Positions 49,249 to 64,000 of a stretch of DNA of 64,000 bases are shown one piece after another. Numbering within the stretch: the first letter of the stretch is position 1; every line of letters begins with the position of its first letter. The notes below the pieces were generated by a model. It was not told where the DNA came from. It made no database searches and saw nothing but the letters and a program-made list of their open reading frames with translations. Source of the stretch: a virus; IMG/VR virus record IMGVR_UViG_3300037520_001069, positions 1-64,000 of that record; one strand, given 5' to 3'. The position numbers were made by a program, and so were the translations under genes.

Positions 49249-50477
49249 AAAAAGTCTCGTCTAAAGTGGTAAATGGTGTAATCCAACTTCTTAGTGACCA
49301 TCTTGTATATCCGGACCTCTATGCCGCCATCGGAAAAAAGCCAGACAACATTGTTCTCAAGCCTATCCATCGTGGTCATCCGGTCTCTTGATTGCCAATA
49401 AGATGTCGCACTGAAATCGATGTTGAAATATACAAGCAAATCGGCCTCCTTTAAAGAAATCCCCTCTCTGCCCGATATTATTTGCAGTGCTATGTGCTTG
49501 TCGGTCGAGTTGAACTCCTCCAAGTTATCGGTCAAGGTGTACTCAAGTACACTCTTCAGCAACTCATACTCGGCTTTGAACTTGTAAAATATGCCAAGTT
49601 TCATGCCCGAAAAGTGAGTTCTGATGTAATGCGCCTTTGCGTAATCAAAACATAGGTGCTTCCCGCTCTCAAAAATTACCGTTCCAGAATAAATCTGGTG
49701 GAGTTTGTTCATCAACTTGACCTCTGTGTCTGCCAAAATAACTTCATCACCAACCCTCACAACCTTGTCCTTCTTCAGTTGCTTGGCGAGTTCGTGGGTG
49801 GCAGGACTCATTTCAACAGACTCTATCCTCTCATTTATGGTCGTCAAAAAACCGGCCTCTTGCTGAGTGAACGATATTGTGTATGGCTCCATCGCTTTCA
49901 GAATGCTCTTGTGCCCATCGCTATAGTCCTTGACATCATAGCCATTTATCTTCTTGGTCTTTAATGTCACATAGTCCCTTGCGAACAGGTAAAAGTTACG
50001 ATACCCAATGAACGGATTTCCAGGGATGCCGTACATCTGATGATAAATCTGAGAGTAAGATTCGGGAGTTGGAGTTCCCGATAGCAGAACAACGCGTAAT
50101 GGCTTATTAGCGTAAATCAGCTTCGCAATGTCAGAAGCCCTCCTGCTTGGCTTGGGAAACGCACCAAGGCAATGGGCTTCGTCCAATACCAAGAAATCCC
50201 ACTTGCACTTGGGTAGTTTGTGGGCAGACTCGTAATTGGTCACCGTCACACTTAATGCCGTTCCGTAATTCTTTATGTCGGCTTGTATACCTGCAACTGC
50301 TTTTTTCTTCGTGAGGAACAATACTTGCCCTTGCCGTAATACTTTCTCACAACACGCAATGCTTGTAAGAGTCTTGCCCGTTCTGACCTGCATGGCCAAG
50401 TAAAGAAATCCGTGGCGACTCAATATCCTTGAGCCCCTATCAGATATGTCTATCTGATAATCTCTCAGCGTGATCAC
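49245..50477 (-). CDS. SNF2-type (SF2) DNA helicase/translocase
   Basis: A 410-residue compact SF2 helicase: MQVRTGKT (Walker A, residues 29-36), VLFLTKKKA (Ia), DEAH (99-102), LLSGTP (motif III), 'ALQIISGREGISLKEADLLV' (motif V) and QSRDRM (motif VI). Similar short SNF2-like proteins occur in most crAss-like phages, probably in replication or recombination. GTG start, overlapping the previous stop (GTGA). It contains one 17/18 palindrome copy (49536-49553), in the opposite orientation to the other copies and reading SVLEYT. Confidence 0.88.
   Translation of the reverse strand: MITLRDYQIDISDRGSRILSRHGFLYLAMQVRTGKTLTSIACCEKVLRQGQVLFLTKKKAVAGIQADIKNYGTALSVTVTNYESAHKLPKCKWDFLVLDEAHCLGAFPKPSRRASDIAKLIYANKPLRVVLLSGTPTPESYSQIYHQMYGIPGNPFIGYRNFYLFARDYVTLKTKKINGYDVKDYSDGHKSILKAMEPYTISFTQQEAGFLTTINERIESVEMSPATHELAKQLKKDKVVRVGDEVILADTEVKLMNKLHQIYSGTVIFESGKHLCFDYAKAHYIRTHFSGMKLGIFYKFKAEYELLKSVLEYTLTDNLEEFNSTDKHIALQIISGREGISLKEADLLVYFNIDFSATSYWQSRDRMTTMDRLENNVVWLFSDGGIEVRIYKMVTKKLDYTIYHFRRDFL
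49536..49553 (-). repeat. 18-bp palindrome, copy in SNF2 gene (17/18, inverted centre)
   Basis: Plus strand GGTGTACTCAAGTACACT: arms match the repeat except the last base. The CA centre is inverted relative to the other leftward-block copies. It encodes SVLEYT on the minus strand. Confidence 0.7.
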
Positions 50478-50614
50478 GCGCTAAAAGAGAAAAAGACAAA
50501 ATGATCCGATCCGATCAGAAAAGTGCTTCCAGTATACCAGTTCAATGTATGTTGAATAGTGTACCCGTAACGAGTCTCAATAAAGTCACTCGTCACAACA
50601 TATGCATAATTCAT
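50474..50614 (-). CDS. 46-residue protein in the gap before the SNF2 gene
   Basis: An open frame of 47 codons fills the 133-base gap exactly. Its ATG overlaps the stop of the upstream gene (ATGA) and its TGA overlaps the GTG start of the helicase gene (GTGA). The product starts MNYAYVVTSDFIETRYGYTI and ends FVFFSFSA; it is beta-rich and neutral. Without it, the only long gap in this packed operon would be unexplained. Function unknown. Confidence 0.65.
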   Translation of the reverse strand: MNYAYVVTSDFIETRYGYTIQHTLNWYTGSTFLIGSDHFVFFSFSA

Positions 50615-50862
50615 TTTACGGGAATGCAGTATGAGATAATAAACTCCGATGCCTGAATGGACGCTTCAGGTTCAGGCAGTTCTCTCCTGAACGCTTCCTG
50701 AACATACATCCTGAATCGGTCAAATTGTTGCTCATCCATATGATACAACTCACGCCAATTCTCTACATCAACGATGTTCTCGCTTGAGACATCATTGTAA
50801 CCGGCAATGACAAACATGGTGTCAATGCAATCAAGCCTTAGTTTTGCTTCTTGTTCTGTCAT
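50611..50862 (-). CDS. Small acidic helical protein
   Basis: An 83-residue acidic protein (TEQEAKLRLDCIDTMFVIAG...). Not recognised. It overlaps the upstream small zinc-finger gene by 32 bases and the downstream miniprotein by 4. Function unknown. Confidence 0.6.
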   Translation of the reverse strand: MTEQEAKLRLDCIDTMFVIAGYNDVSSENIVDVENWRELYHMDEQQFDRFRMYVQEAFRRELPEPEASIQASEFIISYCIPVK

Positions 50863-50989
50863 TTTTAATTACATTATCAATTAGAATACCACAGTACGGA
50901 CAGTACGGGCCTGTCTTAATGTCAATCATCGCTTTGGTCGCCTCATGTTGGACGAGACCATGAACTTTACAAGTGCCTACATACTTCAT
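50831..50989 (-). CDS. 52-residue zinc-finger-like protein
   Basis: A 53-codon frame: MKYVGTCKVHGLVQHEAT... with GPYCPYCGILI. One Cys-x-x-His pair and one CPYC pair could bind a zinc ion. The start follows a TATCTTTA element after 4 bases and lies 14 bases after the primase stop; the frame runs 32 bases into the next gene. Similar mini zinc ribbons are common in phages; the role is unknown. Confidence 0.6.
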   Translation of the reverse strand: MKYVGTCKVHGLVQHEATKAMIDIKTGPYCPYCGILIDNVIKNDRTRSKTKA

Positions 50990-50993
50990 TGTG

Positions 50994-51001
50994 TAAAGAT
51001 A
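50994..51001 (-). promoter_or_regulatory. Near-consensus -7 element, leaderless arrangement
   Basis: On the minus strand TATCTTTA differs from TAnnTTTG at the last base and is 4 bases before the ATG at 50989. Confidence 0.35.
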
Positions 51002-51003
51002 AA

Positions 51004-53394
51004 TTAAAATGGTGAATTTTCTTCTTCTTCCTTACCAAAAATTATCCATCTTCCGCTCATGTCTCTGCCTTCTTCGGGCTGACAATTATACTTGAACTGA
51101 GAGTAAGATGAAAGCCATCTGTAGAACCTTGTTCTGCTTATCGTGAACTTTGACTTCGGAGCATAATCGGGGTTCTCTCTGATGAAATCGTCATACAAAC
51201 TATTCTTGTACAGCCTTCTTCCCTCGGCCAAAACTTCATTCGGCTGTTGACCTGGAAGCACTGCACACCACTCCATAAACTCATGCGATGTTTCTGCGGA
51301 GAATTGACGAACCCTCAAGTTGACAAAAGAACTCTTGGTCAAGCCCGTTGCAAGGTATGACGATAGGTTTTGTAACATATAATTGTCAAACGCCAACCAC
51401 TCGGCATCATCCCAATCGCTGAACATGAGCCTGCCAAATTCGTCAAGTGGCGTAAACTCCTTTGTGTAATACTGATGTAATTCTAACTCCCACTTCCTTC
51501 TCGCAAAGGAATTGCCTGCACCCTTGATGGCATAATTTGTAGTAATCGCAATCTTGGGCGAATTTGCAAACGGAATCTTGATAGCATCCTTGTTCTTCTT
51601 CTCTATGGTCAAGCCTTCGGTTACCGCACTAAACAACCTCTCAAAGTCAAAGTGCTTGCGAACATCATCAAAGCATATCACTTGGGTCTCAGCACTCACA
51701 AGTTGATAGGCGAATGACCTCTCAAAGGTGAACGACTTACCGTCAATCATAATGACCTTCTTCATCTTGGCGAGTCCGTTCATAAGCAATCCCTTACCCG
51801 TTCCTCCCTCCGGGTTATCCGTAATGACTTCATCATTCAGAATGACCGCAGGACAGAAACTCAAATGCTTGTACCCATGCAACAAGAACCCGATGGTGGA
51901 CTGCATTGACTTAATCCTTGACTCTTCCTTGTTGCAGATGTTCTCAACGAACCTCTTGAAATCGCAAGTGGTTACCTCAATTTGCCTAAAGTCCCTATCA
52001 ATAATATGCTCCTTCCAAACATACCCATTCAAGTCAAAGTAGTCTATGCATAATATCTCGTACTCCGAAACTCGTACTGCACAATTTCTGTAATACAAAT
52101 ACGCGTGTTCCTTCGTGTCTTCCATGACATAGACATCAATCGTTGTCAAGAAGGACAGAAATGTGTCCGTGAAATACTTCGTGTTCTCCACGAAGAAATT
52201 GTAAACTTCAATATCGCCATACGAAAGCAGATGGTTCAGAGTGAAATCCTTAATCTTCTGCTCGGATGCGTTCTCAATCAAGTTGTTCGTAATGCGAACA
52301 AAGATGTAATGCTGACTGCCGTGAGGGAAATACTTGTAAAACCCATTGTCTTCCAAAAATTTTTTGAACCCAATGTGAAACATCTTAATGCTCCCCTTCT
52401 CTGTTTTCTTCCAAAATATGTCCTCGTCTTGAGCGATGTCTTGGATGATGGATTCAACTGCTTCGGGGTCAACTCCCTCTTTATCTAATTGACCCCGTAT
52501 TGCTTTTTTTGGTACACCGGCCTTAATCTGATTCTTAATGCTCTCCACCTTCTCTCTGTCCTCGTAATACTTCGTGCCAAAGTTTTGTGTGTTGGAATAG
52601 GCACTATCCACAAGGCGTATAATTTCCATTTGCTTGAAATCGCTTGACATATAACTCAAGCATATGTTCAATGCAGATGATTTGTCAATACCGAAATCGT
52701 TAAGTGCCATCGCCAAGATGTACAAGTTGTGATTCCTTGAGCCATTGACCATCGGATATTTCTTACTCCACCATGTGAGCAGAATTTTCGTAATCTTATC
52801 TTCGTCAGTTATCGGGATGGTTTTGGTGACTTCGGTAATCGTATGCTGAACCGACTCCTCTTCCTCAATTTTATCCCAAACGATAGAGTCCTCATTCACA
52901 TACGCAGATGGGTCATAGGACTCGTAGCAGACACGGGAAATGTTCCCCGTGGCTTTATCAAAATGTGGGTTATCGTAATACTTCATCAATGTCTGAAAAT
53001 AACCCTTGTGGCTATCTATTGATGGCGGAACTTTAACGATAACCTTGATGCCATCGCCCGATGGGGATATGAAAGCACAATAGGTGTACTCGGATTGAGT
53101 TAGCACCTTCAAGTCTTTGCTTAATGCACTTTTGCTTTGATACCCGTCAAAGTCCAAACAAATGTACCCAGAGTGTTGAATGACCGAATGGTCATTCCTC
53201 TTGGTAAAAACACCGCTAAAACAAATAGCAGGTAAGTCTTTCTTCAAAATTCTTCTCTTCTCCTTGTCGCTCTCTGCCCTTATCTTATCAACAAGTTCCT
53301 TTGACGCACCACTCTTAATCCTATCAATGACGAAATCAATAGGCTTATGGAATGGTGTTGTTGTTTCCTTTATGTTCTTGAATATCGTTATCAT
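51004..53394 (-). CDS. Primase-helicase (BT4734/VirE-type N-terminus, SF3/D5-like helicase)
   Basis: A 796-residue replication protein. Residues ~40-165 match the BT4734/VirE-type primase domain: HSGYICLDFDGYQS (metal-binding D-x-D), AFISPSGDGIKVIVKVP and a helix with HKGYFQTLMKYY. Residues ~210-275 look like a primase C-terminal helical domain. The helicase core has EGGTGKGLL (Walker A) near residue 535, VICFDDV (Walker B) near 570 and 'PKIAITTNYAIKGAGNSFAR' (motif C Asn plus Arg finger). It should prime and unwind at the phage origin. A C-terminal winged-helix-like part (~705-780) completes it. Almost certainly the central replication gene here, because no DNA polymerase gene is seen in the window. 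Confidence 0.87.
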   Translation of the reverse strand: MITIFKNIKETTTPFHKPIDFVIDRIKSGASKELVDKIRAESDKEKRRILKKDLPAICFSGVFTKRNDHSVIQHSGYICLDFDGYQSKSALSKDLKVLTQSEYTYCAFISPSGDGIKVIVKVPPSIDSHKGYFQTLMKYYDNPHFDKATGNISRVCYESYDPSAYVNEDSIVWDKIEEEESVQHTITEVTKTIPITDEDKITKILLTWWSKKYPMVNGSRNHNLYILAMALNDFGIDKSSALNICLSYMSSDFKQMEIIRLVDSAYSNTQNFGTKYYEDREKVESIKNQIKAGVPKKAIRGQLDKEGVDPEAVESIIQDIAQDEDIFWKKTEKGSIKMFHIGFKKFLEDNGFYKYFPHGSQHYIFVRITNNLIENASEQKIKDFTLNHLLSYGDIEVYNFFVENTKYFTDTFLSFLTTIDVYVMEDTKEHAYLYYRNCAVRVSEYEILCIDYFDLNGYVWKEHIIDRDFRQIEVTTCDFKRFVENICNKEESRIKSMQSTIGFLLHGYKHLSFCPAVILNDEVITDNPEGGTGKGLLMNGLAKMKKVIMIDGKSFTFERSFAYQLVSAETQVICFDDVRKHFDFERLFSAVTEGLTIEKKNKDAIKIPFANSPKIAITTNYAIKGAGNSFARRKWELELHQYYTKEFTPLDEFGRLMFSDWDDAEWLAFDNYMLQNLSSYLATGLTKSSFVNLRVRQFSAETSHEFMEWCAVLPGQQPNEVLAEGRRLYKNSLYDDFIRENPDYAPKSKFTISRTRFYRWLSSYSQFKYNCQPEEGRDMSGRWIIFGKEEEENSPF

Positions 53395-53455
53395 TTTTTT
53401 TGAAGATTAAAAAAGGGGAGGTTTCCCTCCCCTCAAACATAAGCCATGAGTGATA

Positions 53456-53695
53456 TTAGTAAGGGGCAGACCCCTCGTCTTTTTTCGGTTTGAATGTGCT
53501 TAATTCAATATAAGTCTTGCCATTCTTGGCTTCCTTAATTTCCAAATTAACCCATCCATTGTCTTGGTGTTTATCCAAGAACGCTTTGGCATCTTCAACT
53601 TTTACTGATAGTTTCCCAATCACGAATTGGGGGGCTTTGTCACTCGGATATTTGAATGAAAAGCCGTCTGCGAAAATTTTTTCTGTGTCTGACAT
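53456..53695 (-). CDS. Small conserved protein, possible ssDNA-binding protein
   Basis: A 79-residue protein: FADGFSFKYPSDKAPQFVIG, KLSVKVEDAKAFLDKHQDNG, then WVNLEIKEAKNGKTYIELST. This pattern recurs next to primase and recombination genes in Bacteroidetes phages, and a small OB-like ssDNA-binding role is a reasonable guess. Followed and preceded by short gaps. No motif proves the function. Confidence 0.6.
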   Translation of the reverse strand: MSDTEKIFADGFSFKYPSDKAPQFVIGKLSVKVEDAKAFLDKHQDNGWVNLEIKEAKNGKTYIELSTFKPKKDEGSAPY

Positions 53696-53707
53696 AGTTT
53701 TTAGGTT

Positions 53708-54439
53708 TTAGAGAGTTTGATATATGGTGATTTGGCTTATGTTCTTTTTCTTCGTTGGTGATAGGTAAGTGTTGTAGACTTCAAGGGCCATCTCCACCTT
53801 TTCCCTGCCCCTTGCTACAAACTCATCGGATGCAGTAAACACCCCTATCATCTTGGTCTCCTTGTCAATGACAATGAACTTCATCGGCTTGCCGAATAGT
53901 TCGCCATAGATGTAGGCTTGGCTATCGTAGTTGTAACGATAAGCACTATATCTAAAGTCGGACAATGACGATGTGGTCTTGATGTCATACAAGAAATCAG
54001 AGGCAACAATGTCTGCCTTACCCTTGAATGATTGACCCATAATCGTGCCAATCGCAGGTTGCTCAAACTTGTTCCCTTTATCGTAGATGGTTGAAGACAC
54101 CTCAAAGTTCTGCTTCAGAGCAGAGGCAACCTCCAACATAGCATCCGCCTCGTCCTGCAACAAGAGAATCTGCTTACCGCTATCTGCAACCGCTTGCTTA
54201 TAGATGTTGGTGTTTCGGCTTGATGCTTGGACGATTTGAAACGAAGATGCTTTGTCGGGCTCAAGCATGAGCGTGTGGAGGTATCTACCTTCCACCATCG
54301 CCTTGGTCTCCTCCTTTGGCTTACCAAAGTTCTTCGGGTCATTGATTAGCGTTCCAATGTCAGAATTGGATAACCAATTCGCACCGAACTCTCCATAGTA
54401 GTTGTCATCAACTTTCAGTTTTTCAATTATCGTACTCAT
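53708..54439 (-). CDS. PD-(D/E)XK exonuclease (RecE/ExoVIII-like)
   Basis: A 243-residue nuclease: GRYLHTLMLEP (family His, H55), GKADIV (D143), DIK (D152, K154) and QAYIY (Q174). This is the RecE/YqaJ-like set of the single-domain phage recombination exonucleases, which make 3' single strands. It lies next to and overlaps by 17 bases the Sak3-type annealing protein, the usual exonuclease/annealase pair. Confidence 0.88.
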   Translation of the reverse strand: MSTIIEKLKVDDNYYGEFGANWLSNSDIGTLINDPKNFGKPKEETKAMVEGRYLHTLMLEPDKASSFQIVQASSRNTNIYKQAVADSGKQILLLQDEADAMLEVASALKQNFEVSSTIYDKGNKFEQPAIGTIMGQSFKGKADIVASDFLYDIKTTSSLSDFRYSAYRYNYDSQAYIYGELFGKPMKFIVIDKETKMIGVFTASDEFVARGREKVEMALEVYNTYLSPTKKKNISQITIYQTL

Positions 54440-55043
54440 CTTTTAGGGATTTAATTGCGTTAAGGGAAATGTCATATTTTTCGTTGAATGCTTCAAGCAA
54501 GTCAGCGAAGGGCATACTCTTTTTGTTTGCCTTGAGATAAGCGACTACCTTATCCCAATTTTTGTCACCGACATCAAGACCGACTCGCTCCTTGCTTGGT
54601 GTACTTGAGTACACCCTGCGACCCCTTGGTGTAGGCGTTGGTGCAGGCGTTTCGTCTTTGATATCTGTGTCCTCTCCAATCCACAACTGAATGCCAAGCC
54701 CATGCATGGCAATCGCCTTGGCGGTGCTACGCTGAATACTCTTGTTGACATCAGTTGAGGTAATCTTCTCAAGCGGAAGAGAGTTATTCCGAAAGTCCAT
54801 CACGGGCAACATATCAATATGCTCTTGACCGCCAACGATGATTCCGACCTTCACATAAGCAGTCTTGCCATCCGTAAAGTAATTCAGCCCCGTGTGAGGA
54901 GACTCGTAGATGACCCTTTGGGCATCGGGGTACTCTTGCTTGAGCATATCCCAAGCGTTAGCCCAAGAGAGGTAGTCCATACCGCCCTTCTTCTCAACCT
55001 TGTCCTTGACACCGATTGAATTTAGTTTTTTGTAAGTTGACAT
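54423..55043 (-). CDS. Single-strand annealing protein (Sak3/DUF1071-like)
   Basis: A 206-residue recombinase. Residues ~22-125 match DUF1071: YLSWANAWDMLKQEYPDAQR, AYVKVGIIVGGQEH, then DVNKSIQRSTAKAIAMHGLG. It anneals complementary single strands, working with the adjacent exonuclease. A Pro/Thr linker (residues 131-143) and then VYSSTP (144-149), encoded by an exact palindrome copy at 54598-54615, separate this core from a ~50-residue C-terminal helical tail that may bind SSB. Confidence 0.88.
   Translation of the reverse strand: MSTYKKLNSIGVKDKVEKKGGMDYLSWANAWDMLKQEYPDAQRVIYESPHTGLNYFTDGKTAYVKVGIIVGGQEHIDMLPVMDFRNNSLPLEKITSTDVNKSIQRSTAKAIAMHGLGIQLWIGEDTDIKDETPAPTPTPRGRRVYSSTPSKERVGLDVGDKNWDKVVAYLKANKKSMPFADLLEAFNEKYDISLNAIKSLKDEYDN
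54598..54615 (-). repeat. 18-bp palindrome copy in the annealase gene
   Basis: Exact GGTGTACTTGAGTACACC. Encodes VYSSTP in the linker of the Sak3-like protein. Little extra flanking pairing. Confidence 0.9.
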
Positions 55044-55360
55044 AGTTTTGATTTAAGTAAATTGATTTTTTTAATTGTTCTTTTGCTCGGTTTAATTTGC
55101 TCTATTCGTTCTTCTATTAAATACCTGGCGACAATTCTTACACCCTCAATCCAACCTATGCGGTAGAAGATGGCGACAAATTCTTTTGGCATATCCGTGT
55201 AGTATTCGCAATCGGATATGTTGTAAGAGAATGTCAGTTCTCCCTTCGCATGGATGCACTTGATGTAAAACTTGTAAGCCCACGAAGATTCAGTTCCTCT
55301 GACATACAAAGTTTCGCAATCGGTTATTGCCTCACTCCATATTTCGTCAGTTGTATACAA
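55022..55360 (-). CDS. Protein of unknown function
   Basis: A 112-residue protein (TTDEIWSEAITDCETLYVRG, then a helical C-terminus 'LIEERIEQIKPSKRTIKKIN'). Not recognised. The gene overlaps the annealase start by 22 bases and the next upstream gene by 37. The Lys/Arg-rich C-terminal helix could bind nucleic acid. Confidence 0.58.
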   Translation of the reverse strand: MYTTDEIWSEAITDCETLYVRGTESSWAYKFYIKCIHAKGELTFSYNISDCEYYTDMPKEFVAIFYRIGWIEGVRIVARYLIEERIEQIKPSKRTIKKINLLKSKLCQLTKN

Positions 55361-55653
55361 GGTTCGGTGATTTTATCTACAACTGATTTGAAGAACTTGT
55401 CCTTCGCACACATTTGTCTGCAAGCGTTGACATTGTACCCAAATAAATTCGGGGGCATATCAAATCCTTTACGCTTGAAGAACTCGTAAATATAGATGGG
55501 TTCAATGAGACATTTGTGACAAATGTAGCAGAACGCTTGTCGCCCCCTTGTGATATGGCGTTTTTGCGTTTTGGTAAACAATGTATCAACTGACTCATAC
55601 TTGAACTCTCTCTTTATTTCTTTCAACGCTAAATTAAATACATCATCTCTCAT
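55324..55653 (-). CDS. Possible degenerate DnaA domain IV-like protein
   Basis: A 109-residue basic protein. 'KRHITRGRQAFCYICHKCLI' followed by 'IYEFFKRKGFD' follows the helix order of DnaA domain IV (R..Ar Q..yL......I...F...), and can be aligned by eye to the clear domain IV protein at 48591-49040. The RDHTTV box-reading motif is missing (FGYNVNACRQM stands there), so DnaA-box binding is unlikely. Otherwise unknown. Four Cys could bind metal. Confidence 0.45.
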   Translation of the reverse strand: MRDDVFNLALKEIKREFKYESVDTLFTKTQKRHITRGRQAFCYICHKCLIEPIYIYEFFKRKGFDMPPNLFGYNVNACRQMCAKDKFFKSVVDKITEPCIQLTKYGVRQ

Positions 55654-55657
55654 TTCG

Positions 55658-56356
55658 TTAGTGTTCGTTTATTTTAATGTGCCTATTAGTTTTGACTCGC
55701 CTCCCACTACAAAGTCTACACTTTGAGCAGGTGGACATATAGCCTGCCTCCTTGGACGCAGGACATTGAACCGCATCAACCTCTTGGCCTTCCTTCTTGA
55801 CGATGAAAGCACGGAAGCCAAGTTGAAATGACTCTCTTGCCTCTTCATCGTTATGAGCGGATGCCATAAAGTATTCTGCATAAGGCTGACACCAAGGCTT
55901 ACGCCATTGGTGAGTGTAGCCCGTGTGACACTTGCTGACCTCTACCATGTCCTTTACCAAATCAATGGGCATGAGACTCGGTTCTCCGTATGTGCCAAAG
56001 CGAACATATTTGCCCTTGCACATTTCAACTATCTTCCGCCTCTTCTCATCAGTCAACTCGGTGGTGTCCTTGATAGAGCGGAGCGAAGACAAGAAGCCGG
56101 AATACTGAAGGTACTTGTGCGTGTAGCAACCGCCCTCCCCCGCGTTGCGGGAGAAGGGGCAGTCCATACAATTAGCCTTGTCATGTCCGAAGAAATCAGA
56201 TTGTGTTGTCTTGCCGTTGAGAACTAAATTCAGTTGGTCTAACGAATAGGTGTAGGTCTGAACTATTTGTTCCTTTGGCTCGGCAATCTTTTTGTTGGTA
56301 GTGAACGCAGAACTAACTACGAACAACCTGCTACCATCAGACCAACTTATTTTCAT
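55658..56356 (-). CDS. Conserved Cys-rich phage protein (DUF7227-like)
   Basis: A 232-residue protein widespread in phages. Seen: ANCMDCPFS, GGCYTHKYLQ, 'GKYVRFGTYGEPSLMPIDLV', TGYTHQWRKPW, and a C-terminal VQCPAS...C..CRLCSG. The Cys set suggests two metal sites; the biochemical function is unknown. The ATG at 56356 is chosen over an upstream one because it follows a TAnnTTTG element by 4 bases and gives the family N-terminus (MKISWSDGSRLFVV). Confidence 0.72.
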   Translation of the reverse strand: MKISWSDGSRLFVVSSAFTTNKKIAEPKEQIVQTYTYSLDQLNLVLNGKTTQSDFFGHDKANCMDCPFSRNAGEGGCYTHKYLQYSGFLSSLRSIKDTTELTDEKRRKIVEMCKGKYVRFGTYGEPSLMPIDLVKDMVEVSKCHTGYTHQWRKPWCQPYAEYFMASAHNDEEARESFQLGFRAFIVKKEGQEVDAVQCPASKEAGYMSTCSKCRLCSGRRVKTNRHIKINEH

Positions 56357-56531: not shown

Positions 56532-57117
56532 TGGCTCTTGATGTCATAAGTTGTTGCAAAAGGGAACATTCTTGAATAAGTTCCTCCAAGGACGAATAGG
56601 TCTCACCATTTCCGTTCAACCTCAACCTCCACTCAAGACCCACTACTTCAGATGCAGACACCTCCTCGCCATCGGGCAACTTGATTGGGTTCTTTATCTG
56701 CTTGAGCGAGACTTTCAGAGGTATTGGGTCTATGCGTTTGCCCTTCACGGCAATGAACACATCTGCGAGTCCATGATAATGGATGGACGCAGGATTGTCC
56801 TTCAAGGTCTGAATCAAGTCCATAGGAGTGTTCCATCTTTGTGAGGCAAAGCCCATTGACCCTTCAATCAAAGTAAAGCGAGAGCCAAACTCTTCGTGGA
56901 AATTGGCGAAATCCCGTTTGATTGACTCTTGCAGAGACGGGGCGATTGCGAGGTTTTTCGTAACAACGGACTTCACATACTCGTCCTTCAACGATAAAGA
57001 CTCGTTGATTTTTGCCATGTTGAAACGCTCGTACCTTTTGGTTGAGGTGGAGTCATTGATGTTTTCAAAGTTCCTCGTAAGGTCATTGATGATTTGTTGT
57101 TGTGATTGTGTTAACAT
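56524..57117 (-). CDS. Protein of unknown function
   Basis: A 197-residue protein (MLTQSQQQIINDLTRNFENI...). The first ~90 residues are helical; the middle ('SIHYHGLADVFIAVKGKRID') is beta-rich, and the end is again helical. I do not recognise it; homologues seem to exist in related phages by style. The ATG at 57117 is used because the frame upstream runs through the palindrome at 57147. Its mRNA leader thus carries that hairpin if transcription enters from upstream. Confidence 0.55.
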   Translation of the reverse strand: MLTQSQQQIINDLTRNFENINDSTSTKRYERFNMAKINESLSLKDEYVKSVVTKNLAIAPSLQESIKRDFANFHEEFGSRFTLIEGSMGFASQRWNTPMDLIQTLKDNPASIHYHGLADVFIAVKGKRIDPIPLKVSLKQIKNPIKLPDGEEVSASEVVGLEWRLRLNGNGETYSSLEELIQECSLLQQLMTSRANG

Positions 57118-57146
57118 TTTTTGGTTTTTAAAAAGTGAAAGAAAAG

Positions 57147-57164
57147 GGTGTACTTGAGTACACC
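57147..57164 (-). repeat. 18-bp palindrome copy, intergenic and terminator-like
   Basis: Exact GGTGTACTTGAGTACACC, with one more G-C pair (57146-57165). On the transcript it is a GGGUGUAC-UCAA-GUACACCC hairpin followed by UUUUCUUUC, so it could be an intrinsic terminator between 57170 and 57117. Confidence 0.9.
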
Positions 57165-57169
57165 CGAAA

Positions 57170-57883
57170 TTAAGATTCTGCAAGCAATAAGGTTCGGTAC
57201 TCGTCTGCCGTCAAGTGCCGGTGGTGTTTGAGCCTTTCATATCCGCCCTTCGGCTTGACAAGGATGCAGTCTCCTTGACGGAGGATGTGGCTAATATAAC
57301 CCTCGGCAATATCGGTGGTGATTGTCCAAGCCACGCAGTCAATAGCATTAACCACCTTCGGGGCTTCTCTTTGCTGACTTGCCCATGAACTCCAAGTATC
57401 TTTTTGTTTCGTCATATACACCGAATAAATATCAACCCATAGCAAATACTCTCGGTCGGTAGAGGTGTCCTTGCAGGTGATGTAGTAGAACTTCTCGCCT
57501 TTATTGATAGGCGACCTCCAATCGTTGTCAATGTCTCTAAACAAGTCCTCGCCATTTAACTCGTACAAGCGGTAGGTATCGTCAAACTTATGCTCAACAA
57601 GTTCACCGCTTTCGGTCACCCACATGGTGGTCTTGGCAATAGACTCTTCGTTGATAAGACGAACATTCAGTTGCTCTTTCATCCGCTCAAGCCCAAGGCA
57701 ATTTAGTGCAACCCTACGGGCCTCCACATTGTGGGTGTCTCGGACGATGTCTTGGAATGTGGGAGGCACGATGCTATCCCAAATGTCTTCAAGCCCTGCG
57801 AATGGCGTGTCGCCATATTTCAATTTAAGTAGACCACATCCGATGTTGTAGTCAAATTCTTGGTTTTGGATTATTATTTTCAT
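57170..57883 (-). CDS. Protein of unknown function
   Basis: A 237-residue protein (MKIIIQNQEFDYNIGCGLLK...). Mixed alpha/beta; 'DREYLLWVDIYSVYMTKQ' and 'AIDCVAWTITTDIAEGYISH' stand out as conserved-looking. I do not recognise a family. The upstream gene overlaps by 4 bases; downstream lies the palindrome hairpin. Confidence 0.55.
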   Translation of the reverse strand: MKIIIQNQEFDYNIGCGLLKLKYGDTPFAGLEDIWDSIVPPTFQDIVRDTHNVEARRVALNCLGLERMKEQLNVRLINEESIAKTTMWVTESGELVEHKFDDTYRLYELNGEDLFRDIDNDWRSPINKGEKFYYITCKDTSTDREYLLWVDIYSVYMTKQKDTWSSWASQQREAPKVVNAIDCVAWTITTDIAEGYISHILRQGDCILVKPKGGYERLKHHRHLTADEYRTLLLAES

Positions 57884-58515
57884 AGTTCTCTATCTTGTGT
57901 GATAAAATATCTTGTTTGGAAATTGCACTCTAATTTGTCATTGCTTTCGTATTCAAACGATAAGCCTTCATCGTGTAACTCAATATCGTCTCCATACCCT
58001 TGCTCAATGTCAAAGTTATGGTTCAGTAGTTGGGTTCTGATAGCATCAATGAATACACTCAAAGCCTCTTCGTCCTTGTCGGTCAAAATGCAGTCGCCCT
58101 TGTAGTTGACCTCGCACTCGCCCCCATTGTACGGATTGCCACTCATTGAGTCAATCTTCGCAAGGATGGATTCTTTGACCCAATCATCCACCTTTACCTC
58201 TTCAGCATTCGTAGCGGTTTCTTCGTATTCCGACCTTGAGGACTTGTTAAAGTACAAAGTTTCGCCATCATCCTCCATTCCGATAAAGACATCGCCATGC
58301 TCACCAAGATAGTGCCCGTCACTGCACTCGTAAAAGGTCACTTGATTGTAGACCTCATTTGATAGTAGGTCTTCCAATTCCGTGTCATGTATACGCTCTC
58401 CGCCCTCATTGTATAGGGCCATTTCCGTATCATTCATGGAGTCGCCCCCTGCCGAAAAGGTGAACTTCGCCTCATCCACATTCAGTTTTTTCCATAGTTC
58501 TAAAATCTTATCCAT
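57880..58515 (-). CDS. Acidic protein, weak DUF6878 resemblance
   Basis: A 211-residue, very acidic protein. 'EAKFTFSAGGDSMNDTEM' near the N-terminus and 'SDGHYLGEHGDVFIGMED' later recall the 'F.G.GDSGQIE' feature of DUF6878 proteins of phages and plasmids. The last ~75 residues include ECEVNYKGDCILTDKDEEAL. The acidity could suit a DNA-mimic role, but that is speculation. Confidence 0.55.
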   Translation of the reverse strand: MDKILELWKKLNVDEAKFTFSAGGDSMNDTEMALYNEGGERIHDTELEDLLSNEVYNQVTFYECSDGHYLGEHGDVFIGMEDDGETLYFNKSSRSEYEETATNAEEVKVDDWVKESILAKIDSMSGNPYNGGECEVNYKGDCILTDKDEEALSVFIDAIRTQLLNHNFDIEQGYGDDIELHDEGLSFEYESNDKLECNFQTRYFITQDREL

Positions 58516-58906
58516 TTTGTAGTTTTTGAATTAAGTTAGTTGCGTTAAGTTTTGATTCGTCATTGTCAATCTCCTTCACCCCGTTGCACATCCACGGCTG
58601 AACCTCAAGGTGCTTGAGATAGTCCTGCGGTGTAGGTACGAACTTCATGCGGAAATCTTCTGCTATGTGCAACATGGCAACATCTATCGTGTCCACCCTC
58701 TTGCCGTCAGCATTGGTCAAGTTGTACCCGAATACCTTGGGGATAATCGTGTACGCAAACCATGTGTTGTGAGTCAGAGCCCTTGATGAATTATTGTTCA
58801 TCGTGGCCTTCGGTGAGTCAATCAGTTCATGGATGGGGAGGTAGTCTTCTACCTTACCTCCCCACCGCTTGACCGATGATTGCGAGTGAATGAGTGGGTT
58901 CGCCAT
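58508..58906 (-). CDS. DUF6915-like protein
   Basis: A 132-residue protein starting MANPLIHSQSSVKRWGGKVE. The plan 'M.HPL.HA.SS.+.+GGK.EDY..IH...D..K' followed by a helix, 'IPKVFGYNLTNADGKRVDTI' and 'HIAEDFRMKFVPTPQDYLKH', ending in PWM, is that of DUF6915. The ATG at 58906 fits the family start and lies just after the upstream stop (58908). His residues could form a metal site. Function unknown. Confidence 0.75.
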   Translation of the reverse strand: MANPLIHSQSSVKRWGGKVEDYLPIHELIDSPKATMNNNSSRALTHNTWFAYTIIPKVFGYNLTNADGKRVDTIDVAMLHIAEDFRMKFVPTPQDYLKHLEVQPWMCNGVKEIDNDESKLNATNLIQKLQNG

Positions 58907-58907
58907 G

Positions 58908-59168
58908 TCAATCCCAAACTCTTGTAATGGTGCGACTGAACGGGTTGTACTCCACTTGTTTTCCGGTGATGTACTGACCCTTCTCAACTCGGAGCGATTG
59001 ATGTTCGGCAAACTTACCCGAAGGTGTCTCATGCCTCAAGACCGAATCCTCGGCAACATCAAGCGTGATAGTTTCGCCATCCTCTCGGTGAGAGAAATCT
59101 CCGTAGAGCGTGTGTTGGTTGACCCCCTCACCCTTGAGGATGGTCAGTTTATTCTTGGACTTTGTCAT
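58908..59168 (-). CDS. Small beta-rich protein of unknown function
   Basis: An 86-residue protein (MTKSKNKLTILKGEGVNQHT...) with His-rich beta strands ('VLRHETPSGKFAEHQSLRVE'). Not recognised. It overlaps the upstream gene by 20 bases. Confidence 0.6.
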   Translation of the reverse strand: MTKSKNKLTILKGEGVNQHTLYGDFSHREDGETITLDVAEDSVLRHETPSGKFAEHQSLRVEKGQYITGKQVEYNPFSRTITRVWD

Positions 59169-59394
59169 AAGGTAAGTAGTTAAAGTTTTCTTCTAAAATC
59201 GGGTCACTCGGTTCGCAGTTAAGTTCAATGGCAAGGAATTGTTTGGCATCGTCAACGCTCGGAAATTGCATGAGTTCATCGTTATCGTTCAGCAGAAACT
59301 CAAGCCCATTGATGCATATTCCCTCAATGTAGCGACCGATAACAAAAGAAGGGGGTGTACTTGAGTACACCCCTTCTTGAGAAGGATTAGTCAT
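59149..59394 (-). CDS. Small protein with VYSSTP near its N-terminus
   Basis: An 81-residue acidic protein. Residues 9-14 are VYSSTP, encoded by an exact palindrome copy, so the first ~15 residues may have been added by repeat insertion. The rest (IEGICINGLEFLLNDNDELM, then FPSVDDAKQFLAIEL) looks like a small conserved domain, not recognised. The gene overlaps both neighbours (20 and 8 bases). Confidence 0.6.
   Translation of the reverse strand: MTNPSQEGVYSSTPPSFVIGRYIEGICINGLEFLLNDNDELMQFPSVDDAKQFLAIELNCEPSDPILEENFNYLPYDKVQE
59354..59371 (-). repeat. 18-bp palindrome copy in a small gene
   Basis: Exact GGTGTACTTGAGTACACC. Flanks extend the pairing (GAAGGGGTGTAC with GTACACCCCCTTC, one bulge) and a T-rich run follows on the transcript. 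Reads VYSSTP. Confidence 0.9.
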
Positions 59395-59713
59395 TGGTCT
59401 TACGCCTTACTTCAAGACCCTTAATCATGTCAGCCAAGAGGCTATCGCCATGTTGAGCCAAAAGCCTCTCCATGATTTTACGCTCGGCAATGACCACTCC
59501 CATGTGGAAGCCACTCATGTACACCTTACGCTCGTACTCGGTCAACCCTTCGGTCTCGCCAAGTTCATCGTGGTGTAACCCGTTGAGGTGCGTCTCAAAC
59601 ATATCTGAAACCTTGTCCTCCTTGTCCCAAGACTTGAAGGCTTGGGCTTTGCTTTCATACGCCCACTCATCGGTGAGGCCAAAAGCGACTGCAACTGAAT
59701 CATTGTTTTCCAT
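59387..59713 (-). CDS. Small acidic helical protein
   Basis: A 108-residue protein (MENNDSVAVAFGLTDEWAYE...) with 'GLTEYERKVYMSGFHMGVVI' and a helical end. Not recognised. It overlaps the downstream gene by 8 bases; a 48-base A/T-rich gap lies upstream. Confidence 0.58.
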   Translation of the reverse strand: MENNDSVAVAFGLTDEWAYESKAQAFKSWDKEDKVSDMFETHLNGLHHDELGETEGLTEYERKVYMSGFHMGVVIAERKIMERLLAQHGDSLLADMIKGLEVRRKTND

Positions 59714-59761
59714 TTTTCTAATTTTTTATGGAGTGAAACAAATAAGATAGGGTTTGCGGAT

Positions 59762-60088
59762 TTAAGCCTCCGCAAGGGGCTTGAAATAAATCTTCTTGGG
59801 CATATAGCCGAAGACGAATGAGGTGACCTTGCAGAGCCATAGCAATTTATTGTTATGGCGGTAAGTCGCACCGCCAATGAATGGCGTGTTGACAATCTTG
59901 GTCAGTACATCGCACCCGTCAAAAGGCTCGGTGTCAAGAGTGAGGGTGATTGTGGGTCGCCCTTCGGATAAGCGGTCAAGGAGCGTGTCTGCTCCTGCGA
60001 CCATAGCAAGGTCGCCTTTTGCTCCTCGCCATTCGGGAAGGTCAATATACCATTGACCGCCCTCGTTGTTGAATGTGTATTGTGTCAT
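59762..60088 (-). CDS. DUF6717-like protein
   Basis: A 108-residue protein: YTFNNEGGQWYIDLPEWRGA, KGDLAMVAGADTLLDRLSEG, then LLWLCKVTSFVFGYMPKKIY. This W-Y-D-LPE-W...GAD..LD..S pattern and the WLC motif match what I remember of DUF6717. Function unknown. It has its own upstream promoter (60097-60124). Confidence 0.68.
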   Translation of the reverse strand: MTQYTFNNEGGQWYIDLPEWRGAKGDLAMVAGADTLLDRLSEGRPTITLTLDTEPFDGCDVLTKIVNTPFIGGATYRHNNKLLWLCKVTSFVFGYMPKKIYFKPLAEA

Positions 60089-60096
60089 GTGTTTTA

Positions 60097-60124
60097 CGAA
60101 GATATTGCAATAATTGTGCCAAAG
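60097..60124 (-). promoter_or_regulatory. Early promoter module, copy 2
   Basis: On the minus strand CTTTGGCACAAT (60113-60124), then TTGCA and TATCTTCG (60097-60104). The same parts occur at the same spacing at 63939-63966. The -7 element deviates at one base (TATCTTCG for TAnnTTTG). It would drive 60088 downward with an 8-base leader. Confidence 0.55.
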
Positions 60125-60129
60125 TGTTT

Positions 60130-60348
60130 TTATAGTTCAGAAATAATTAAATCGGACAAATAGTCATACTCGGCATCTGACAAAATGTCCTCATCGTCAA
60201 AGTGTACAACCTTGTGCGTAGTGCATGAGCCATCGTGCATTTCCGTAACAATATATGCACCCGTTACAAGTCGCCCGTCCTCCATGCGTAGGGAAAAAAC
60301 GCCATCAGTCCTTGTGGACTCATGCTTCATGTTTAGGTCAGTTATCAT
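60130..60348 (-). CDS. Small protein of unknown function
   Basis: A 72-residue acidic protein (MITDLNMKHESTRTDGVFSL...). The ATG at 60348 overlaps the previous stop by 4 bases (ATGA); the longer frame is rejected on that ground. Not recognised. Confidence 0.58.
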   Translation of the reverse strand: MITDLNMKHESTRTDGVFSLRMEDGRLVTGAYIVTEMHDGSCTTHKVVHFDDEDILSDAEYDYLSDLIISEL

Positions 60349-60659
60349 AGGTTGTAGTCTTGAAATAGTGTATCGTCCTTGATAACTTTCTGCGACCATG
60401 CACTACTCCAATAGGATGGGCTGATGGAGGCAAGGATGTAGTCATCAAGGATGGTCGGGTCAACCTCGGTGTAGAGGTAGAAGGTGTCCTCGCATTGCTC
60501 AAGTGCTGATAGTGGATTATCCATCGGGCAATCCTCAATAGACATTGCGTAGTATGTTATGGTGTGACCATTGCCATCGGGTTTGCAGATGGCAACCTCG
60601 CCCATGTCCGTGACGAAAATAGATGTGTTATCGGGTTTGGTTATCTTTCGGTATTTCAT
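60345..60659 (-). CDS. Small protein of unknown function
   Basis: A 104-residue protein (MKYRKITKPDNTSIFVTDMG...), acidic in its second half. Not recognised. ATGA overlaps at both ends. Confidence 0.58.
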   Translation of the reverse strand: MKYRKITKPDNTSIFVTDMGEVAICKPDGNGHTITYYAMSIEDCPMDNPLSALEQCEDTFYLYTEVDPTILDDYILASISPSYWSSAWSQKVIKDDTLFQDYNL

Positions 60660-61045
60660 GTTTGGTGTGTTTTCTTCTCTTCAATTAAACGCTCTACTTG
60701 TTTCATTGGGGCAGTAAGAATTAGTTGACGCAACATTTGTCCATCCATCCCAATGGCCCTTAGTATATGCTCCATTGTTTCTCCATCTACATCTTGTAGC
60801 ATTTCAATGGCCTCATTTTCATTGTAGGCTTTGGCTTGGTAGTCATCTTCGCAGGGCTTGGGTCGGTTGTCTATGATTTTTCCATCCGAATCCTCCCAAT
60901 AGATTTCATTACCTTGAGAATCCCATTCACGCCTTACCCAACCTCCCAATGAGTTCTCAATGTAGATTATGTTATGGTTCTTGTCTTTGATTATCAAATA
61001 TTTATTGGTCTCAAAGTTCCAATTAATTTGTTGTGCGATTGTCAT
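60656..61045 (-). CDS. Small protein with YD-repeat-like N-terminus
   Basis: A 129-residue protein. Residues ~12-60 (HNIIYIENSLGGWVRREWDS, then GNEIYWEDSDGKII) look like two short beta-hairpin repeats of the 'G.W...+D..GN.IY.E.S.G' kind. The C-terminal half is helical ('AIEMLQDVDGETMEHILRAI'). No family recognised. ATGA overlaps at both ends. Confidence 0.58.
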   Translation of the reverse strand: MTIAQQINWNFETNKYLIIKDKNHNIIYIENSLGGWVRREWDSQGNEIYWEDSDGKIIDNRPKPCEDDYQAKAYNENEAIEMLQDVDGETMEHILRAIGMDGQMLRQLILTAPMKQVERLIEEKKTHQT

Positions 61046-61350
61046 AGCAGTTGGTTTAGTTTGTGTTCAAATTCTTGGGTCATGCCCTCAACATCGTACT
61101 CGGTTGTGCCATCCTCGTCCGTGCAGAAGGCGATGTCAACAACGATTGTGCTTGGTGGTGTACTTGAGTACACCTTGTCCATGAAGGCATGGATGCAGTC
61201 AAGTTCGCTCACGCTTAACTTGTTAAATTCGGAGGACAAGAAGTCTTGGTAGAGACTATGGGCTCTTTGCCATGTCTCGTCAAGGTCAGCATAACGCTCT
61301 TGCTGAAGGATGCGTGATGCCACGCAGAAAACGGGATAGTAGTGGTTCAT
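61042..61350 (-). CDS. Small protein with internal VYSSTP
   Basis: A 102-residue protein. Residues 1-58 are helical (VFCVASRILQQERYADLDET); VYSSTP (60-65, palindrome copy at 61157-61174) marks the boundary to a beta-rich, acidic C-terminal part (TIVVDIAFCTDEDGTTEYDV). Not recognised. ATGA overlaps at both ends. Confidence 0.58.
   Translation of the reverse strand: MNHYYPVFCVASRILQQERYADLDETWQRAHSLYQDFLSSEFNKLSVSELDCIHAFMDKVYSSTPPSTIVVDIAFCTDEDGTTEYDVEGMTQEFEHKLNQLL
61157..61174 (-). repeat. 18-bp palindrome copy in a small gene
   Basis: Exact GGTGTACTTGAGTACACC; reads VYSSTP. No extra flanking pairing of note. Confidence 0.9.
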
Positions 61351-61655
61351 TTTTCAAAACGGATTTTAGGAATTGGAAGTGAAGGATTGAATGCAACGGA
61401 GCGACCCCCCTTGGTGTAGCCAAGGACAACGCCTATCCCCTTGATGATGGTGTCGCCAATCATAAAGGATTTGGAGTCTTGGACATAGAGACCCTCGTCA
61501 TCTACCCACAAGTCATGTCGGTCGGTTAACACAACTCGGTCAACATACTGACATCCGATGGTCTTGTAGAGCGATTGAAGGATGTTGTCTTTGCCTCCAT
61601 CTATCTCGGTGATGGTGGCGGTCTTTTCGTTTGGATTAATTACAAGTGCTTTCAT
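61347..61655 (-). CDS. DUF3846-like protein
   Basis: A 102-residue protein: MKALVINPNEKTATITEIDG, a helix, then LTDRHDLWVDDEGLYVQDSK and 'GVVLGYTKGGRSVAFNPSL'. This is the layout of DUF3846 ('M+AL+I.P........+.......DDEGL......F.....P+.G.+++.G'). Function unknown; common in phages and plasmids. The ATG at 61655 is used, and the longer frame through the palindrome is rejected. Its leader carries the hairpin at 61680-61697. Confidence 0.75.
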   Translation of the reverse strand: MKALVINPNEKTATITEIDGGKDNILQSLYKTIGCQYVDRVVLTDRHDLWVDDEGLYVQDSKSFMIGDTIIKGIGVVLGYTKGGRSVAFNPSLPIPKIRFEK

Positions 61656-61679
61656 AGTTATAGTTTTAAGAAAGGGAGA

Positions 61680-61697
61680 GGTGTACTTGAGTACACC
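61680..61697 (-). repeat. 18-bp palindrome copy, intergenic with long extended stem
   Basis: Exact GGTGTACTTGAGTACACC; the stem extends to GGGAGGGGTGTAC with GTACACCTCTCCC (one mismatch), followed by TTTCTT on the transcript. It lies 25 bases upstream of the DUF3846-like start, so it could be a terminator, attenuator or operator. Confidence 0.92.
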
Positions 61698-61714
61698 CCT
61701 CCCGTGGTAACCCC

Positions 61715-62590
61715 TTACCACATTTGTGAGTATTTGGTGTCTGATTGAATGGATTGAATGATTTTGGCAATCGTCTCCTTGGTGAACTCTGCCGTTGACT
61801 CTTCCTTGTGGAAGCATGGCAAGTCACCCGCAGGAAGTTCAATGACTATCTCCTCTTTGTCTACCCCGACAAATCGGAGGAGGGCTTCGTCCGAACAAAC
61901 TCTGTGCCTATCCTTGCCCGTTTGCGAGCAACCATAAGAAGCGGAGAACGATGCTTCCTTGAGGTATTCGCCCAAGCCCTCAAGCCATGCGAATCCGATA
62001 CGCCTAAAGAAGGACGGGTGGGTGACCGCACCAAGGCGTGGGATGTCTAAAGGCTCGCAGTAGTCTTTGAGCCCGAAGATGTTCATGCCCTTGTCCTTGT
62101 AAACCCATGTGTTAGCGAAGTAACCGCTTATCTTGAGGTCGCAGGAGTCAGCCAAGAACTCGCAGATGCTTGCCACCATGCCACCATGGTTGATGAAGGC
62201 ATTGGCGGAGTGCCCTGCCGTGCAGTTGGATGCGAAGAGCAGATGTACCTTGGGCATCTTGTCGGTGTTGACCCTACGCCAATAGCATTTTTCCTCGCCT
62301 GCAATGAATGAGGCCATGTCAAGGTCATCGCCCTCCTCCGCAAGGATGTAGCCCTTGCGTGGTGCGGTCAGCGTGTCCACAATGTAGTCACGGGCTCGGA
62401 TGATTTCCTTGGCATTGTAGCCGTCATAACATCGGTCAACCATCTCTTTGAAATTCTTGGCATCACCATAGAATCTCTCGTCCTTATCCTTGCTATGGAT
62501 GGACTCCGTGCCCATAGCCTTGGCTAATTGCACGAACTCATCAAAACCGCACTCGGTAAAGGTCAAGTCACCCTCTTGTTCCCACCTCAT
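61715..62590 (-). CDS. AAA-ATPase partner protein (DUF7192-like, vWA/CobT-type)
   Basis: A 291-residue protein encoded just downstream of, and overlapping by 4 bases, the CobS-like ATPase. 'ERFYGDAKNFKEMVDRCYDG' near residue 38 and 'VHLLFASNCTAGHSANAFIN' near 115, then 'SICEFLADSCDLKISGYFAN', resemble the DUF7192 partner of phage CobS/MoxR ATPases, whose core looks like a von Willebrand A domain. Here the usual D-x-S-x-S metal site is not obvious (SNCTAGHSAN stands near it). The pair may remodel an unknown target complex. Confidence 0.68.
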   Translation of the reverse strand: MRWEQEGDLTFTECGFDEFVQLAKAMGTESIHSKDKDERFYGDAKNFKEMVDRCYDGYNAKEIIRARDYIVDTLTAPRKGYILAEEGDDLDMASFIAGEEKCYWRRVNTDKMPKVHLLFASNCTAGHSANAFINHGGMVASICEFLADSCDLKISGYFANTWVYKDKGMNIFGLKDYCEPLDIPRLGAVTHPSFFRRIGFAWLEGLGEYLKEASFSASYGCSQTGKDRHRVCSDEALLRFVGVDKEEIVIELPAGDLPCFHKEESTAEFTKETIAKIIQSIQSDTKYSQMW

Positions 62591-63696
62591 AGGTCAACCC
62601 CCTCCGTGAGTCTTTTTACAACATCGGATGCGAGTCCGTTAAGGATGGAATACTCAAGGGCTTTCTTGATGGAATGCCGACCCGTAGCCACCAACTTGGT
62701 GGTGTGGATGGTTTGGCGTGGGCTGATGAGCAGATGGTCATAGCCCAACTCCTTGGCCTTGGCACGAATCTTCTGCACCGCACGGATGCCCTGCTCAACC
62801 TCGGCAATGGCCCGATACCTATTGGGCTCGGTCTCTGAGAAACGCTTGTCAATGTACGGCAGGGCTTGTGCCATCGCCACCTTGACCTCCAAAGCCGTGT
62901 CAATGTTCCAAATAATCCGGCTGAATCGGGTCAATGAAGAGCCGTCCTGCCGTTGTGCGGATGCATACGCCTTGGATGACCCGTGGCCCGTGGTGTTCTG
63001 ACAAGCGACCACACGAAAGTCGGGGTGCTTGTCCACAAGTACGCCATCCGCAAAGGTGAACCGACTGCCCTCAAGCAGGCCGTTGAGCATGATGGTGACA
63101 TCCGAATTGCCTCGGTCATACTCGTCAAGGATGACAAGACCGCCCTTGGTATAGGCATCGTACAAGGGCGTGGCCTTGTAATTGCCGTGCGGGTCTCGGT
63201 AGCCGACAAGAGAGGAGGTGGACATCATGCCGTTGAACGGCTGAAAGTAAGGAGTGAGCCCAAGTGCCTCGGCACATTGGAACGCACCGAAGGTCTTACC
63301 CGACCCTGCCTCACCGATGAGGGCGACATTGAGCCCCAAGTTGATTTGGTAGCACAACTCCTCAAAGTTCTCATGGGCATGGTCAAACTCTGCCGTTGCA
63401 CCCGTGGGTGATATTAAACGGGTGACACGGGCACGGGGCAACTTATCAAGAGCCTTGGCGGTAGCCTCGCTGACATCTTGCTTGATGATTTGGGCAAGGC
63501 GTGGGTCGGCAAGGATGGAGGCCATAAGTGACTCGGTGTCTATGGCAGGTGTACTTGAGTACACCTCTGCCTCGCCCGATTCAAGGGTCTCACGCATGGC
63601 TTGAGCAACTGCGTCTGCCAACTGCGTCTGCACTTGGGCTTGGGCTTTGGAGGTCGCTCTTTGTAGCAGAGCCTCCCATTGGGGATTCTTGGACAT
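62587..63696 (-). CDS. CobS/MoxR-like AAA+ ATPase
   Basis: A 369-residue AAA+ protein: GEAGSGKT (Walker A, residues 128-135), VGYRDPHGNYKATPLYDAY, LVILDEYDRG (Walker B, 187-196), 'FRVVACQNTTGHG' (sensor 1 region) and 'RFSRIIWNIDTAL' with Arg. This is the phage 'CobS-like' family, related to cobaltochelatase and MoxR remodelling ATPases. The N-terminal ~85 residues are helical; VYSSTP (45-50), from an exact palindrome copy, lies in a linker there. It is coupled to the DUF7192-like partner by ATGA overlap. It probably acts early as a remodeller or inhibitor of host functions; no cobalamin genes are nearby. Confidence 0.88.
   Translation of the reverse strand: MSKNPQWEALLQRATSKAQAQVQTQLADAVAQAMRETLESGEAEVYSSTPAIDTESLMASILADPRLAQIIKQDVSEATAKALDKLPRARVTRLISPTGATAEFDHAHENFEELCYQINLGLNVALIGEAGSGKTFGAFQCAEALGLTPYFQPFNGMMSTSSLVGYRDPHGNYKATPLYDAYTKGGLVILDEYDRGNSDVTIMLNGLLEGSRFTFADGVLVDKHPDFRVVACQNTTGHGSSKAYASAQRQDGSSLTRFSRIIWNIDTALEVKVAMAQALPYIDKRFSETEPNRYRAIAEVEQGIRAVQKIRAKAKELGYDHLLISPRQTIHTTKLVATGRHSIKKALEYSILNGLASDVVKRLTEGVDL
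63548..63565 (-). repeat. 18-bp palindrome copy in the AAA ATPase gene
   Basis: Exact GGTGTACTTGAGTACACC; flanks extend the stem (GGCAGAGGTGTAC with GTACACCTGCC, one bulge). Reads VYSSTP. Confidence 0.9.
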
Positions 63697-63702
63697 AATG
63701 GT

Positions 63703-63915: not shown

Positions 63916-63938
63916 GGTGTAGGGGTTTAGGTTGTTTA

Positions 63939-63966: not shown

Positions 63967-64000
63967 TCAAAATCGGACACATTGTCATGACATAATGTCA
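63967..64000. repeat. TGTCA/TGACA palindromic sequence at the right edge
   Basis: TGTCATGACA is a perfect palindrome, with a further ATGTCA at the very end. It lies upstream of the early promoter and resembles the ATGTCG repeats of the left end in part. It is cut by the window edge. Confidence 0.4.

Follow-up and report, generated by a model that had tools for sequence, protein, structure and literature searches.

Dispersed palindromes as probable operators of the helix-turn-helix protein f34 in a group of aquatic podoviruses

Copies of one short palindrome, scattered through a phage genome inside genes as well as between them, raise the question of what they are for and whether they act as DNA or as RNA. 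The question is posed by IMG/VR virus record IMGVR_UViG_3300037520_001069, of which positions 1-64,000 (hereafter the window) out of a full record of 65,966 bp had drawn attention: the original prediction had reported six exact copies of the 18-mer GGTGTACTTGAGTACACC, at 54598, 57147, 59354, 61157, 61680 and 63548, together with a copy carrying one change at 49536, and all seven were found where it had placed them. Read against the genomes of relatives, the palindromes are probably dispersed operators of a phage-encoded DNA-binding protein, here called f34, which would act as an autoregulated global regulator of the roadblock or stoperator type; the probability of this reading is put at about 0.68. 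Such a phage-wide control circuit would be previously undescribed; a search limited to the open literature found no description of these sites.

The repeat was rightly judged not to be a product of chance, as shuffled sequence is expected to yield only 0.03 matches at up to three mismatches to the 18-mer. A further one-mismatch copy, overlooked at first, lies within the terminase gene at 10864, and four more exact copies lie past the right edge of the window (64261, 64422, 64725 and 65698), so that the whole genome carries ten exact 18-mers. The site is two-fold symmetric apart from its two central bases. The exact copies had been said to share one orientation, which holds within the window but not in the full record, where those at 64261, 64422 and 64725 are inverted and the sites of this genome divide 7:4. 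Counting the motif in other genomes, the check that had been suggested, found the sites dispersed in relatives, while the 18-mer is otherwise at background level, occurring in 5 IMG/VR stretches and, across 84,980 prokaryote genomes, in 26 stretches that each contain one site; a host-derived site was rejected on this ground. DnaA boxes were also rejected, since they are not palindromic.

Sites of this kind are dispersed through this phage and more than 70 relatives, and one general 16-bp form, GTGT-NN-T-YR-A-NN-ACAC, fits all versions, with a pyrimidine-purine (YR) central step in 231 of 232 sites. Four site classes can be distinguished: GTGTACT, which is that of this phage, GTGTCTT and GTGTCGT, these three emerging from de novo palindrome counts in relatives, and GTGTCCT, newly found through a search with the f34 protein. 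Most genomes carrying GTGTCTT have 6-18 exact copies of it. The closest annotated relative, MW202828.1 (terminase 68% and primase 62% identical), has 14 exact copies of GTGTCGTTAACGACAC, of the GTGTCGT class, across its early block, several of them 3 nt past stop codons and shortly ahead of the next ATG. Among 26 contigs chosen by motif alone, a selection that favoured long or multi-copy ones, 22 encode the portal of this phage group. A second near-palindrome, AGGTCCTNNAGGACCT, recurs beside the GTGTCTT sites of G054, G056 and G058 (L492-L498, L508).

A candidate binder emerged when the predicted proteins of 58 genomes and contigs were clustered into families and followed by profile searches. 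After clustering, three families separated site-bearing from siteless genomes. By profile search, f34 was present in all 17 near-complete genomes with at least three sites and in none of the eight without sites (Fisher p=9e-7, a value that ignores shared ancestry). An amidoligase-like family and a glutamine amidotransferase/gamma-glutamyl cyclotransferase (GATase/GGACT) family also correlated with the sites but are missing from this genome, and both were rejected as binders because they are enzymes and absent here. As an observation in its own right, the amidoligase-like gene and a fusion of class-II GATase and GGACT (L012, that is MW202828.1, 15925-18925, and relatives) accompany f34 in nearly all site-bearing phages. 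On a portal tree, the presence of f34 requires at least six changes forced by well-supported branches, and neighbours differ in both traits, G054 and G035 with sites standing beside G033, which has neither f34 nor sites. The association is thus not due to one shared ancestry.

A blind test pointed in the same direction. Searching IMG/VR with the f34 protein alone returned 72 loci, 59 of them on previously unused contigs, and GTGTxxT palindromes were present on 57 of these 59 contigs, a few of which had only one copy in the DNA examined; among 46 other phage loci taken as a control, none had the palindromes. The other two of the 59 contigs have variant palindromes around f34. L617 has GGGTATT-YR-AATACCC at positions -151 and +655 relative to its divergent f34, and at L604, GTGTCTT is paired with GTGTCTA half-sites, a one-half-site variant, at -54 and +650 of f34. 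The recognition-helix sequence of f34 differs between site classes; the f34 class tree is only weakly resolved. Across these comparisons, the two halves of the site change together at its many places in the genome, in parallel with divergence in the recognition helix of f34. f34 is therefore very likely the protein that binds the palindromes, and of the options originally listed, that of repressor or stoperator sites is favoured, since the palindrome accompanies, and varies together with, a single helix-turn-helix (HTH) protein encoded by the phage.

As read from sequence and model, f34 is an HTH protein of about 200-245 amino acids. Its AlphaFold model (pLDDT 82.5) has three N-terminal helices, which include the HTH-like stretch; an acidic linker modelled at low confidence connects these to a beta-alpha domain at the C terminus. 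A BFVD search with f34 returned four relatives. In this genome f34 is the first gene of the early block and lies just beyond the window (record 64,769-65,503, minus strand), where it was recognised by profile (E=7.5e-7) and synteny; the window holds the promoter-proximal part of the leftward block at 62587..64000 (minus strand). The gene is flanked by sites at record positions 65698 (upstream) and 64725 (downstream). A similar arrangement recurs across the group: in most genomes the f34 gene has a site ahead of it, one directly behind it, or one on each side, and in about half of f34 loci a site lies 90-280 bp upstream, many with another just past the f34 stop. In L262, L251 and other relatives, the upstream site is often directly followed by a second small hairpin and then an AT-rich stretch; this hairpin consists of a purine run, TTAA or CTTAG, and a pyrimidine run, and might serve as an origin or form part of a leader.

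Across the group, 91 of 228 sites start no more than 30 nt past a stop codon, against 9.8 expected. In this genome, the exact site at 57147..57164 (+) is intergenic, directly past the stop of the gene at 57170-57883 (-) and ahead of the likely ATG of the next gene; that at 61680..61697 (+) lies past the stop of the DUF7192 gene (61715-62590, -) and ahead of the start of the DUF3846 gene, whose Pfam domain starts downstream of it; and that at 59354..59371 (+) lies between, or at the start of, two early genes. Within genes, exact sites occupy the linker of the Sak-type single-strand annealing protein gene (54598..54615, +; gene 54423-55043, -), the early gene at 61042-61350 (61157..61174, +; gene on the minus strand), and the stretch preceding the AAA domain of the AAA ATPase gene (63548..63565, +; gene 62587-63696, -). 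The annealing-protein gene of MW202828.1 holds a site of its own GTGTCGT class. One-change sites lie in the helicase gene (49536..49553, -; gene 49245-50477, -), about 20-30 nt off the helicase position used by most site-bearing relatives, and in the terminase large-subunit gene (10864..10881, -), where the one-mismatch GTGTACT site is one base off the position at which relatives carry an exact site of their own class.

The in-gene sites indicate what has been preserved. The same codon column is shared in the terminase (16-18 genomes), the helicase (16) and a small late protein (12), and the three positions use three reading frames. The palindrome is made by synonymous codons, and flanking third positions are free. 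In the small late protein, G032, which lacks f34, has near-identical amino acids around the site, with the palindrome-making codons found only in f34-type genomes. At the terminase position, the GTGTCTT palindrome of other genomes is replaced in contigs G067 and G068, of the GTGTACT class, by a GTGTACT palindrome, a change in both arms. Genomes lacking f34 have no sites at these codon columns, except for a lone helicase copy in G076 (L533-L536), a single exact GTGTCTT site that is possibly a relic. V-Y-S-S-T can be read in frame across four exact copies of this genome (54598, 59354, 61157 and 63548), and selection for a peptide VYSSTP was considered; relatives use all three frames and encode other peptides (VSSKT, CLQRH, VFEDT), and V-Y-S-S-T is therefore not the selected feature. 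The in-gene sites are conserved at the nucleotide level across different reading frames, and a symmetric site with a YR centre is what would be expected of DNA bound by a dimer.

A mechanism can be proposed on this basis. An f34 dimer would bind the 16-bp palindrome and bend it at the central pyrimidine-purine step. Made early, f34 would bind upstream of its own promoter, giving negative autoregulation, and as it accumulated it would fill the sites past early-gene stops, within the operon, at the late-operon terminator and inside long genes. Bound f34 might then hinder RNA polymerase inside operons and at the ends of genes, thereby shutting down or insulating transcription. Repression by roadblock is somewhat favoured over activation or DNA organisation as the outcome, at lower confidence than the identity of the binder.

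The rival that survives best, unlikely as it is, holds that f34 and its sites form a system of genome organisation or segregation, similar to parS/ParB or Noc, rather than a transcription regulator. The HTH stretch of f34 looks ParB/KorB-like by eye, one f34 member scores E=0.0035 against a ParB-like PHROG, and sites extend genome-wide into structural genes. However, no ParA-like family was seen to track the sites among the clustered families, and no CTPase-type (ParB N-terminal) domain was recognised in f34, neither as a Pfam match nor as a PDB fold match, the model having a helical N-terminal region. Moreover, the sites concentrate near f34 and past stop codons.

Only slightly less probable is the possibility that the palindromes act as RNA hairpins, whether intrinsic terminators, attenuators or processing sites. 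After-stop sites have 3.7 outward pairs, compared with 2.5 in a swapped-flank control, and 20 of the 91 have a terminator-like T tract (mostly one orthologous terminator), as does 1 of 118 other sites. In most site-bearing relatives, one copy forms the tip of a conserved intrinsic terminator past a capsid-type gene, so that the original suggestion of intrinsic terminators holds for this subset. It fails for the in-gene copies, which show no stem extension (1.94 outward pairs against 2.06 in the control), while f34-lacking relatives keep terminators at the same capsid-gene spot with other tips. The symmetric limitation of the centre to YR steps, the tracking of a DNA-binding-type protein, and the lack of a T-run in the flanks of the 14 MW202828.1 copies also speak against an RNA function. 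In this genome, flank-extended stems had been claimed at four copies; the flanks clearly lengthen the stem at 59354 and 61680, as they do beyond the window at 64261 and 64422, but hardly at 57147 and 63548. Three copies had likewise been described as followed by T-rich runs; in this genome only that at 59354, a long extended hairpin with a T-rich tail, combines a stem with a T tract as a terminator would.

About as improbable as the hairpins is a role for f34 as an activator, antiterminator or replication initiator at these sites. The upstream site in about half of f34 loci, close to a hairpin-bearing, AT-rich possible origin, would suit such a role, whereas the many sites found within operons 10-40 nt ahead of start codons, or far inside coding regions, would not. 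Much less probable still is a different binder, the MarR-like winged-HTH "repressor" encoded beside groES (2271..2717, -), a conserved DNA-binding-type protein of this phage and nearly all its relatives; it was rejected because it is also present in 7 of 8 near-complete siteless genomes. A mobile palindromic element or neutral repeat, which the in-frame copies in linkers might recall, as Rickettsia palindromic elements also have in-frame copies within gene linkers, is strongly disfavoured, since the sites are only 16-18 bp long, recur at identical codon columns and in three frames in diverged genomes, are partly built of synonymous codons, switch both arms together with class and are absent without f34. 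RNA processing finds no support either, given the identical codon columns, the joint change of both arms and the absence of sites where f34 is lacking.

Several observations weigh against f34 operators as the explanation. After-stop sites show a mild orientation bias (38:16, p=0.004, shared ancestry ignored) that a fully symmetric dimer does not explain. In four genomes that do encode f34 (G000, W01, G044, G074), the terminator at the end of the capsid gene is an ordinary one with no site. The f34 of this genome is very diverged, at about 20% identity. f34 found no match in the PDB by sequence or fold, and nothing consistent in Pfam or PHROGs, where it falls into no curated family; the HTH assignment therefore rests on sequence and model. 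Finally, no integrase or immunity gene was seen among the genes scanned, which were not all of them.

The nearest known parallel is offered by the stoperators of cluster A mycobacteriophages, in which a phage HTH protein (L5 gp71, Bxb1 gp69) is served by 24-34 sites in each genome, most of them between genes or where genes end, plus an operator at the early promoter; their consensus varies from phage to phage, though only at certain positions, and the bound repressor has been proposed to obstruct RNA polymerase (PMC3029335, PMC5712189). Shared with L5 and Bxb1 are the many copies of a short site (10 exact here, 6-18 in most site-bearing relatives) and the gene-end placement, though many sites here lie in genes. 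Unlike those 13-bp asymmetric sites in one orientation, the sites here are 16-bp palindromes with a YR centre that lie in both orientations, and they include several fixed in coding sequence and one in a terminator tip; the phages show no evidence of lysogeny, and their hosts are probably Bacteroidetes. The system would thus work like stoperators, yet its sites are neither asymmetric nor confined to a single orientation, and it is therefore not counted as a member. Comparison of f34 with the repressor families of Pfam and PHROG gave no match. KorB and its operator OB on plasmid RK2 are similar in that one global regulator with a ParB/KorB-like HTH serves many palindromic operators over a replicon of about 60 kb. 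KorB is a CTPase sliding clamp partnered with KorA (PMC11790492). In contrast, no CTPase domain was recognised in f34, and a search among the protein families gave no ParA partner. A third comparison concerns the SAS/ESAS of cluster K mycobacteriophages, short, partly palindromic repeats just upstream of many start codons, the ESAS being paired imperfect repeats coupled to a start-site motif. They resemble the present sites as short palindromic repeats ahead of start codons; they have no known link to a co-varying phage protein, whereas the palindromes here co-vary with f34.

The record carries a 127-bp terminal repeat and is therefore probably complete. The group consists of podoviruses related to the Flavobacterium "elemo" phages; terminase and portal have homologues in Flavobacterium and Cellulophaga phages, and gene content includes groEL/groES, a Sak-type annealing protein and a BT4734-like primase. 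Gene order diverges from a region at the record ends, with late genes pointing rightward and early genes leftward. Adjoining phage groEL and groES genes (window 553-2332) are overlapped by the leftward winged-HTH gene, an arrangement also present in MW202828.1. At the end of the structural region, a single 14-kb open reading frame of 4,696 amino acids (window 31401-45491) contains repeated similar stretches and is a partial homologue of a very long MW202828.1 protein. Two early proteins (48591-49040 and 55324-55653) have DnaA C-terminal-like DNA-binding domains, the second matching weakly. Actinophage-like contigs L006, L008 and L009 with GGTGTACTNNAGTACACC were set aside as probably unrelated, their copies lying within a single HTH-type gene; these clustered GGTGTACTNNAGTACACC-like repeats recall an origin inside an initiator gene.

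The finding would add a genome-wide control circuit, and with it a new family of regulators, in a group of phages that viral databases cover well. At about even odds, f34 represents a new family of global regulators in a large group of aquatic podoviruses, with palindromic operators dispersed over their own operator region, the ends of genes, a terminator tip and even codons of proteins. On this view the entire set of sites would have switched to new specificities several times, along with the regulator. With at least four site classes and two divergent forms, each with matched regulators, the group may offer a natural record of coordinated change in protein-DNA specificity. The sites are fixed even inside conserved genes, and concerted specificity change therefore becomes testable, namely how the specificity of a regulator shifts when at least ten sites must follow. 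It also becomes testable whether roadblock regulation occurs in phages showing no sign of lysogeny. If the reading is true, site class may set the compatibility between co-infecting phages.

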